The notes below the pieces were generated by a model. That model worked only from the letters and a program-made list of their open reading frames with translations, was not told the DNA's origin and searched no databases. Positions 32,961 through 35,959 of a DNA stretch of 44,389 nucleotides are shown here, one piece after another; position 1 is the stretch's first letter; the number at the start of each line of letters is the position of its first letter. The position numbers were made by a program, and so were the translations under genes. Source of the DNA: Candidatus Stoquefichus massiliensis AP9 (lineage in GTDB: Bacteria > Bacillota_I > Bacilli_A > Erysipelotrichales > Coprobacillaceae); the NCBI RefSeq assembly GCF_000455285.1, contig NZ_HG005295.1:5415-49803 (forward strand). The letters are read 5' to 3'.

Positions 32961-33533
32961 TCATTTATTTTCATGATCATCCAATGGATTTGCAAGACTT
33001 TGAATTAATTTATTCAGTTTAATGATATTATGAACACACATACTTAATAAGAAAACCATGATAAGTATATAAACAATCCATATCATTTTAAAAACAATAT
33101 CTTCATTAAGAAAATGATTGATTGCTGTTATGAATATTGGTAAAAATAAGACAAACGGTATCAATACCAACATCTGTTTCCACATAACTTTCTTAATCAT
33201 ATCAATCTTAGAATCATTATCACTAAATATTTCCTGATCACTCTCATTCAGTGATAATTTTTTCTTTCTAAAATAATACCATGTCTGATATTTCATCAAA
33301 TATTCCCATCCACAATCCTGAAATATCTGCAAATATGCTTCCTCATCTTTTTCTTCCTCATTGTAATCCAAACGATAAATATAATCTTCATGTTCACATT
33401 TTTCAAAAGTATATTTCCTAGGGGCTTCAAATTTTATAAATTTCCAGCCTTGTTTATGCTGTTCCTCTAAAAATCTTTGTTCTTCTAAGAAATCAGCCAA
33501 TCCAAAAAATCTCTTCATTACTTTTGTTTCCAT
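32961..33533 (-). CDS. DUF2812 domain membrane protein
   Basis: A 190-residue protein. The N-terminal DUF2812 region (about 1-100) has FLEEQHKQGWKFIKF, DYIYRLDYNEEEKDEE, FQDCGWEYLMKYQTWYYFRK. Two membrane helices follow near residues 118-138 and 148-168, with a short cytoplasmic tail. DUF2812 proteins are commonly encoded next to PadR regulators, as here, but their function is unknown; a role in sensing membrane-active compounds is only a guess. The start is ATG 33533, overlapping the padR stop by one base (TGATG). Confidence 0.85.
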   Translation of the reverse strand: METKVMKRFFGLADFLEEQRFLEEQHKQGWKFIKFEAPRKYTFEKCEHEDYIYRLDYNEEEKDEEAYLQIFQDCGWEYLMKYQTWYYFRKKKLSLNESDQEIFSDNDSKIDMIKKVMWKQMLVLIPFVLFLPIFITAINHFLNEDIVFKMIWIVYILIMVFLLSMCVHNIIKLNKLIQSLANPLDDHENK

Positions 33534-33850
33534 CACTTACTCACCCCCTGACTATTTTTATATAATCTTTCAATGCGTTTAATTTCAATATCTAAAATCT
33601 TTTTTCCTAAATCAGTAATAATATAACTTTTTCTTTTCCCTTCTTCTTTTGTAAACTGAATTAGTCCATCTTTTTCCATTTTAGATAAACTCCCATACAT
33701 TGTCCCCGCTCCAATTTGAATGTCTCCATTTGTCATTGAACTTACTTTTTGAATAATGTTATAACCATGCATTTCAGTCTGTAAACAAAACAAGATATAA
33801 AAACCAGTTTCTGTCATGGGAATATAAACACGCTTAATTTTATCTTCCAC
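33533..33850 (-). CDS. PadR family transcriptional regulator
   Basis: A 105-residue winged-helix repressor of the short PadR type. It has TETGFYILFCLQTEMHGYNIIQKV, then GTMYGSLSKMEKDGLIQ (recognition helix and wing) and YIITDLGKKILDIEI. Small PadR proteins usually sense hydrophobic or cationic compounds and repress adjacent membrane-protein genes. It starts at GTG 33850, with AGGAAG inside the end of the microprotein gene. The operator candidates at 33965-34014 lie at the operon promoter. Confidence 0.92.
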   Translation of the reverse strand: MEDKIKRVYIPMTETGFYILFCLQTEMHGYNIIQKVSSMTNGDIQIGAGTMYGSLSKMEKDGLIQFTKEEGKRKSYIITDLGKKILDIEIKRIERLYKNSQGVSK

Positions 33851-33852
33851 GC

Positions 33853-33951
33853 TTATCTTCCTTTCTTTTTACTCGCATATGCTATAACAATTGCGACTGC
33901 TAAGCCCATTACAATCCAAGGTAATGCTGCTAATACAAAATCATAAATCAT
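33853..33951 (-). CDS. 32-residue membrane microprotein
   Basis: A very small gene, MIYDFVLAALPWIVMGLAV at its start, one hydrophobic helix (about residues 5-25) and a basic tail (SKKKGR). A strong AGGAGG stands eight bases before the ATG, and the stop is only two bases before the padR GTG, whose Shine-Dalgarno site lies in its last codons. It is therefore the first gene of the microprotein-padR-DUF2812 operon. I cannot name its family; similar short proteins starting with an AALPW-like helix seem to occur by such regulators, from memory only. Confidence 0.75.
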   Translation of the reverse strand: MIYDFVLAALPWIVMGLAVAIVIAYASKKKGR

Positions 33952-33964
33952 AGGCTCTCCTCCT

Positions 33965-34023
33965 ATATATCGTACCTCGATATATCACACCGATATTATA
34001 TCGTGGTGTGATATAATTGTCAA
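33965..34023 (-). promoter_or_regulatory. Consensus promoter embedded in PadR-operator-like inverted repeats
   Basis: TTGACA (34023-34018), a 17-base spacer and TATAAT (34000-33995) give a perfect sigma-A promoter. It overlaps ATATCACACC/GGTGTGATAT (33982-33991 and 34005-34014, perfect ten-base arms) and the palindrome CGATATAATATCG at the -10 box (33991-34003). A second repeat ATATATCG/CGATATAT lies at 33965-33985. Four ATATCG units alternate in orientation. Confidence 0.85.
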
Positions 34024-34672: not shown

Positions 34673-34751
34673 GATTTATCCCTCCATGATAAAATATATA
34701 ATACAATGATGTTTAAATAATGTGAATTCTGTATGAATGGAGCTTAATGAT

Positions 34752-35348
34752 ATGAAAAATATTATTTTTGATATAGGAAATGTTATTCTAGATTTTCAGC
34801 CCGAAGAATATCTTCTTCAGTATTTTGATAAAAATGTTATGGGCGATTTAATGACAATTGTTTTTTCTAGTGATGAGTGGGTTAACTTAGATATTGGAAC
34901 ATGTACTTTATCAGAAGCTATCAATTCATTAACATTAGCACATCCTCACTATCATGATGAACTTATCTTCTTTTTAACCCATTGGACATATATGATGGTT
35001 CCTATTCCAGAAACAATACAATTACTTTATGAACTTAAAAATAAGGGTTATCTATTATATATCTTATCTAATTTTTCAACTGATGGGATAGATACTTTAT
35101 TCAAAAGATATGATTTTTTTGAACTATTTGATGGTGCTGTTATTTCCTCAAAAGAAAAATTAGTTAAACCAGAAGAAAAAATCTATCAAGTTTTACTTGA
35201 TAGATATTCATTAAATCCTTCAGAATCTGTCTTTATTGATGATCTTTTGGCTAATGTTAATACAGCAAAAAGACTAGGTATGTATGGTATTTATTTACCT
35301 TATCAAACTGACTTAAGAAATGAACTTATCAAAATGAATATACTATAG
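34752..35348 (+). CDS. HAD-like hydrolase, YihX-type (first of tandem pair)
   Basis: A 198-residue HAD subfamily IA phosphatase. The nucleophile motif is FDIGNVILDF (D-x-G type as in YihX-like enzymes, where the second Asp of DxD is replaced), motif II is YILSNFS, motif III has the Lys in LVKPEEKIYQ and motif IV is VFIDDLLANV. The ATG at 34752 is chosen by GGAG upstream and by alignment with its neighbour; an in-frame start lies at 34737. The substrate, perhaps a sugar phosphate, is unknown. It precedes a paralogue by 14 bases. Confidence 0.85.
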   Translation: MKNIIFDIGNVILDFQPEEYLLQYFDKNVMGDLMTIVFSSDEWVNLDIGTCTLSEAINSLTLAHPHYHDELIFFLTHWTYMMVPIPETIQLLYELKNKGYLLYILSNFSTDGIDTLFKRYDFFELFDGAVISSKEKLVKPEEKIYQVLLDRYSLNPSESVFIDDLLANVNTAKRLGMYGIYLPYQTDLRNELIKMNIL

Positions 35349-35362
35349 AAATGGAGAAATGT

Positions 35363-35959
35363 ATGAAAAATATTATCTTTGATATTGGAAATGTATTATT
35401 AAGATTTCAGCCACGTGATTATTTAAAACAGTTTTATGATCAAGAAACAGTCAATGAACTTATGGGAAGATTATTTGCGAGTGATGAATGGATTGAGTTA
35501 GATAGAGGAACTATGATGATTCATGATGTTATTGAAATTCTTACAAAAAGACATCCTCAATATAGTGAAGAAATAACATTTGTCTTAAATCATTGGACTG
35601 ATATGATGACTCCTATTGTTGAGAATGTTAAAATTGCATATCAGTTAAAAGAAAAAGGATATTCATTATATTTATTATCTAATTTTCACTTAGAAGCTAT
35701 AGAAACTATGTTTCATAAATATGATTTCTTTAAAATATTTGATGGAAAAATCATATCTGCTCATGTTCACTGTATAAAACCAGATCATCAGATTTATCAG
35801 TTATTAATTGACAAATATGCACTCGCTCCAAAAGAATCTGTTTTTATAGATGATTCTTTTATGAATGCAAATACTGCTGATGAATTAGGGATAACGGGTA
35901 TTTACTTACCTTATGAAGAAAGTCTAGAAGAAAAATTAAAAGCATTACATATTTTATAA
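35363..35959 (+). CDS. HAD-like hydrolase, YihX-type (second of tandem pair)
   Basis: A 198-residue paralogue of the preceding protein, same length and about 53% identical in an ungapped hand alignment. The motifs are FDIGNVLLRF, YLLSNFH, CIKPDHQIYQ and VFIDDSFMNA. The differences lie mostly in the cap region (about residues 15-100), which decides substrate choice, so the two may act on different phosphates. The ATG at 35363 follows GGAG. Both genes read together and share the terminator behind this one. Confidence 0.87.
   Translation: MKNIIFDIGNVLLRFQPRDYLKQFYDQETVNELMGRLFASDEWIELDRGTMMIHDVIEILTKRHPQYSEEITFVLNHWTDMMTPIVENVKIAYQLKEKGYSLYLLSNFHLEAIETMFHKYDFFKIFDGKIISAHVHCIKPDHQIYQLLIDKYALAPKESVFIDDSFMNANTADELGITGIYLPYEESLEEKLKALHIL

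Follow-up and report, generated by a model that had tools for sequence, protein, structure and literature searches.

Sequence evidence for a membrane microprotein gene at the head of a PadR-DUF2812 operon

The window analysed here, a single stretch of 44,389 nucleotides, contains a 32-residue open reading frame (ORF) directly upstream of padR which, by sequence comparison, is a real conserved gene of a size usually missed by gene finders. It belongs, on the basis of alignments, to an uncatalogued family of stand-alone single helices of 28–34 residues, scattered over many unrelated places in the genomes of gut bacteria. Taken overall, an inserted copy of this family would be made together with PadR and DUF2812 and would pack against the hydrophobic hairpin of DUF2812, a reading that we put forward tentatively and with somewhat less than even confidence.

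Organization of the operon

The microprotein gene (33853..33951, minus strand) runs from an ATG at 33951 to a TAA stop and encodes the 32 aa product MIYDFVLAALPWIVMGLAVAIVIAYASKKKGR. A ribosome-binding site, AGGAGG (33959..33964, minus strand), lies 7 nt 5' of the ATG. The TAA is followed by the two nucleotides GC and then by the GTG start of padR at 33850, while the padR ribosome-binding site AAAGGAAG (33857..33864, minus strand) falls within the last microprotein codons. Direct reading of the sequence therefore bears out the preliminary description of an ATG frame with AGGAGG, a stop 2 bases before padR and a padR Shine-Dalgarno site (33864-33857) in the final codons. The product has a single predicted transmembrane helix containing PWI and G16xxxA20, and a basic tail, SKKKGR. 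Kyte-Doolittle analysis returns one hydrophobic segment, with a best 19-residue mean of 2.67, in keeping with the single helix and basic tail noted at the outset.

The padR gene (33533..33850, minus strand) encodes a PadR-family repressor of 105 aa (Pfam PF03551, E=4e-15), for which the nearest solved structures by PDB sequence match are PadR-like regulators, including 3f8b/3f8c. It is overlapped by 4 nt by the DUF2812 gene (32961..33536, minus strand), whose product of 191 aa matches Pfam PF11193 with E=3e-28. In the AlphaFold2 model of this protein (pLDDT 90), a mixed alpha/beta domain at residues 4–92 precedes a two-helix hydrophobic hairpin at residues 107–182, which, the microprotein aside, is the sole membrane candidate of the operon. 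A Foldseek search of the PDB with the model gave no significant match (best E 0.1). The rows returned by VIA-align, among them PadR-protein helices (5x11, 6jyi, Z about 7), mainly match the helical hairpin and lie within the range that the tool calls common, and a function of DUF2812 drawn from them was rejected. Gut Firmicutes and streptococci commonly carry PadR-DUF2812 pairs. A literature search returned no paper on their function; DUF2812 is mentioned once in each of two papers, in one of them incidentally. On the plus strand of the window, two adjacent HAD-family hydrolase genes (34737-35348 and 35351-35959) resemble a tandem duplication.

The promoter of the operon, TTGACA-17-TATAAT (33995..34023, minus strand), matches the consensus at 12/12 positions and is as perfect as first described. 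It reads TTGACT..TATAAT in the sister species, and most PadR relatives retain TTGAC... The -10 region and leader are spanned by two 19-bp TATATCG(N5)CGATATA-like inverted repeats. The probable operator 1, TATATCGTGGTGTGATATA (33997..34015), overlaps the -10 hexamer and spacer, and the probable operator 2, TATATCGTACCTCGATATA (33966..33984), lies between the -10 and the microprotein gene; the two are inverted/direct repeats of one another, and the element is conserved among PadR relatives. Comparison of these relatives indicates that inverted repeats are kept over the -35/-10, and the repeats over its own promoter are probably the PadR operator. In most of the PadR relatives (loci L019-L098), multiple TATATCG/CGATATA half-sites with variable spacing are clustered over and after the promoter 5' of padR, which suggests an operator array of variable copy number.

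Known PadR systems resemble this arrangement in part. In the LltR operon of Listeria, a PadR repressor gene likewise stands 5' of membrane-protein genes in one operon (PadR repressor - DUF1700 - DUF4097), which is strongly autorepressed and about 100-150-fold up in an lltR mutant, with envelope signals inferred by the authors (PMC6624303). The window shares with operons of the LltR/LftR kind the PadR-domain repressor, but carries DUF2812 in place of the DUF1700/DUF4097 effectors, and the available part of the LltR report describes no microprotein (PMC6624303). The cdPadR1 protein of Clostridioides difficile (PadR-s2) is, like the window PadR, a short PadR protein, and binds inverted repeats over its own promoter; its motif is GTACTAT..AGTA, as against TATATCG..CGATATA in the window, and the study concerns no DUF2812 partner (PMC5050560).

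The microprotein is absent from the position before padR outside its genus. Among the 80 best PadR relatives from other genera (Clostridia, streptococci, Treponema, Enterococcus) none has a microprotein-like ORF 5' of padR, nor do padR/DUF2812 loci from the same order. In the 80 relatives the TTGAC/TATATCG..CGATATA block lies directly 5' of padR, most often by 25–60 bases, and in 77 of them an ORF, usually of DUF2812 length, is found downstream near the padR stop. As the operator-promoter leads straight into padR in these relatives, with no intervening ORF, the comparison indicates an old set of promoter, operator, padR and DUF2812, into which the microprotein entered, in this genus, at a point between operator and padR. 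An ORF general to padR/DUF2812 operons was rejected on these absences, together with its absence from other DUF2812 loci. The general tie to padR, for which the preliminary description had looked to conservation in related padR loci, accordingly falls away: the frame is missing from 80/80 closest relatives and the same-order loci, and family members are mostly not adjacent to any padR.

Conservation and family of the microprotein

The comparison within the genus covers two species, the source and one sister species. In the latter, a 34-residue orthologue (L002, 1501-1605) that is ~59% identical occupies the same position directly 5' of padR-DUF2812; padR begins within the final codons of the orthologue, and the two genes overlap (ATGGATGA). 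Between the microprotein and this orthologue (NG86), dN is 0.24–0.28 and dS 0.87–0.95, giving a dN/dS of about 0.2–0.3, and the substitutions are mostly at third codon positions; dN between the two species is 0.09 for padR and 0.24 for DUF2812. When the same changes were placed at random in a neutral simulation, 1.2% of the outcomes were free of stops with at least that number of identical residues (P=0.012). The strongest test was a held-out profile of ten short stand-alone relatives, all of them ORFs from genera other than that of the window. It recovered the window ORF with E=7e-10 and the sister orthologue with E=1e-6, and the window ORF was the sole match with E<=1 in its 3.5-Mb genome. 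As a control, a column-shuffled profile reached a best E of 9e-4 over 299 genomes, compared with 3e-21 for a related real profile (A2) on a family draw of the same size. Because the orthologue with its third-position bias, the neutral simulation and the held-out profile agree, we regard the ORF as a real gene, beyond chance. The proposal of a real membrane microprotein, probably unlisted, at the head of a PadR-controlled operon is likewise upheld.

The family motif is F..AA.PWI..[GA]...A followed by a basic tail, and the window ORF conforms to it in the A6 alignment. A Ser-Cys at the helix end is present in all 10 members of alignment A4 and is near-invariant in the family outside the padR-heading copies, which have instead AIVIAYAS (window) and AIAMVYIT (sister species). 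As judged from the alignments, the two padR-heading copies form a diverged branch, and Ser-Cys is a feature of the A4 branch that is not required for homology. The family is absent from Pfam and NCBIfam in our scans. DUF2061, DUF3188, DUF2374 and YmiA were rejected as identities for the microprotein, being weak matches that fall below cut-off where one exists (Pfam/NCBIfam/PHROG).

The family search sampled fewer than 2,000 genomes and gave a patchy distribution, with members in 14/299 Lachnospiraceae genomes when long and fused forms are counted in. A tblastn search of 7.3 Gb of plasmids gave a single match, a 31-aa ORF beside dfrF (E=6e-3). The gene for this membrane microprotein lies on an E. 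faecium plasmid (NZ_CP065930.1, 28867-28959; L121, 8001-8093), flanked by DinB-like and RibD_C genes within the dfrF trimethoprim-resistance cluster. It corresponds to no listed feature, the term 'unannotated' being provisional as the plasmid gene table is incomplete; thus the same peptide family appears to be carried unlisted in a trimethoprim-resistance cluster. Like the window microprotein, it has the homologous helix (55–57% identical), a strong ribosome site and a basic tail; unlike it, it has DinB-like/RibD_C neighbours and the Ser-Cys, and no padR. Identical copies were found at L099 and L126-L128, and several gut Firmicutes have the 31-residue ORF in a dfrF or RibD_C cluster. Diverged copies lie just 3' of a MATE transporter (L016) and 12 nt behind an ArsP-type permease (L129). 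Other diverged copies are apparently solitary (L005, L123, L130-L132), often with a recurring leader, TTTGAAGGAGGAATAAAGTATG. In viral contigs the profile search confirmed 0 of 22 pattern matches, and no family match was seen in phages.

Weaker relatives score 26–36 bits, versus at least 62 for short family members. Proteins of 80–110 residues with an N-terminal family-like helix and a glycine-rich tail (EGMCLGMCxGTAIG..LGMLIG) are encoded at L134 1252-1587, L136 594-875, L138 1297-1572, L141 1492-1764, L006 1342-1581 and L176 1291-1587; one of them, the L006 protein, was scanned against Pfam/NCBIfam and matched no family over cut-off. Membrane-anchored XRE-family regulators at L003 1492-1932, L133 1156-1614 and L139 1026-1481 end in a C-terminal membrane helix similar to that of the microprotein (FISAALPWVLLGLGVAF). 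An FxxGAxPWIGMGL motif is shared by two small ORFs in tandem (L135 1486-1611 and L142 1450-1578, contig 12 of G851) that adjoin a methyltransferase gene, and the second of these, with its leader-like N-terminus (MKELFFEELENVESLGD), could be a peptide precursor.

A candidate partner and alternative readings

Conservation across 13 related members, with kinship ignored, has its maximum at 100 degrees per residue (P 0.003–0.007), and one 100-degree arc, with the GxxxA packing motif in it, takes in F5, A9, W12, I13, G16 and A20. As conservation follows a single helix face with GxxxA, it points to a fixed intramembrane partner. The DUF2812 hairpin is favoured for this role, since the operon offers no other membrane candidate. 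In the model that we propose, one family copy was placed between the PadR-autorepressed promoter and padR, after which padR translation would be coupled to that of the microprotein. Release of PadR from the putative operator, which by analogy to known PadR operons is probably triggered by a drug or an envelope signal, would lead to peptide, PadR and DUF2812 being made together. The peptide would enter the membrane, and its face of F5, A9, W12/I13 and G16xxxA20 would pack against a helix of the partner, most likely the two-helix hairpin, with the effect of stabilising or modulating DUF2812. The steps that we infer are translation of the peptide, the function of the operators, the identity of the partner and what the peptide does to it. 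A precedent for this mode of action, though not claimed as a relative, is ScrA of Staphylococcus aureus, of which a single helix alone suffices to act on the membrane sensor SaeS via helix-helix contact; ScrA differs from the microprotein in its 88 residues, its sequence and its partner, the SaeS kinase (PMC12239555).

A second linkage was found in a distant Clostridia genome (L175), where padR (628-939) and DUF2812 (941-1498) are followed by a 28-residue microprotein (1498-1584) whose start overlaps the DUF2812 stop, with an alpha/beta hydrolase gene next. The linkage arose independently, as the L175 PadR is of a different subfamily from that of the window and the peptide is at the opposite end of the padR-DUF2812 pair. 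No microprotein is present at DUF2812 loci of genomes neighbouring L175. On a rough estimate, chance alone would place a DUF2812 operon among some eleven distinct contexts in a few per cent of cases; the linkage is suggestive, not conclusive. The earlier idea of a partnership with DUF2812 thus gains support from the overlapping genes of L175 and from GxxxA on the conserved face, while the binding step is one that we infer. Against the partnership, most DUF2812 operons have no peptide (0/80 near PadR relatives and none at the other DUF2812 loci examined), so that DUF2812 is not generally dependent on it; family members are mostly far from any DUF2812, and the padR-heading copies have no Ser-Cys. 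The independent occurrence of the microprotein in two PadR-DUF2812 operons would provide a concrete handle on DUF2812 function.

It is possible, and only somewhat less probable than the partnership, that the gene is a mobile membrane-peptide gene that acts alone, for example on the membrane or on another transporter, and landed in a derepressible operon by accident. The many unrelated contexts of the family, its often solitary copies with the leader and its patchy distribution in Lachnospiraceae would fit such a passenger, but its retention in both species with third-position-biased change and the second association in L175 argue against it. Should the main role of the ORF instead be to couple or set padR translation, with the peptide incidental, one could account for the padR ribosome site inside it and for the 2-nt gap here and stop/start overlap in the sister species. 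We consider this improbable, as residues are conserved and not merely length, relatives exist without a downstream padR, the L175 copy is on the 3' side of the pair, and the 80 PadR relatives control padR without such an ORF.

The preliminary description also raised the possibility that the peptide works with the signal sensed by PadR. LmrR-like PadR proteins bind hydrophobic compounds, and the peptide is co-transcribed with padR; these are the points in favour of a peptide that is or carries that signal. A membrane helix is, however, an unlikely ligand for a cytosolic dimer, padR is not found near most family members and most padR relatives are without the peptide, which leaves the idea without support and very improbable. 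We give equally little credence to a toxin-antitoxin reading, in which the peptide would be a small hydrophobic toxin of type I. In its favour are the length of the product, its single helix containing Pro and Gly, its basic tail, the strong ribosome site and the scatter of the loci; against it, Pfam and NCBIfam scans gave no match to such toxin families, and in both the window and L175 the gene sits among closely packed genes of a protein operon. Short hydrophobic ORFs with ribosome-site-like sequence are not rare, yet a chance ORF in the promoter-proximal gap is barely credible against the held-out profile match, the sister-species orthologue and the signs of selection.

A broader reading, which we think unlikely, is that of a portable intramembrane regulator, in which one exchangeable membrane-signalling helix would serve as a free 28–34-residue peptide plugging into DUF2812, MATE or ArsP proteins, as the first helix of the ~80–110-residue glycine-rich proteins and, in the XRE regulators, as the last one, and would also travel with a resistance gene cluster.
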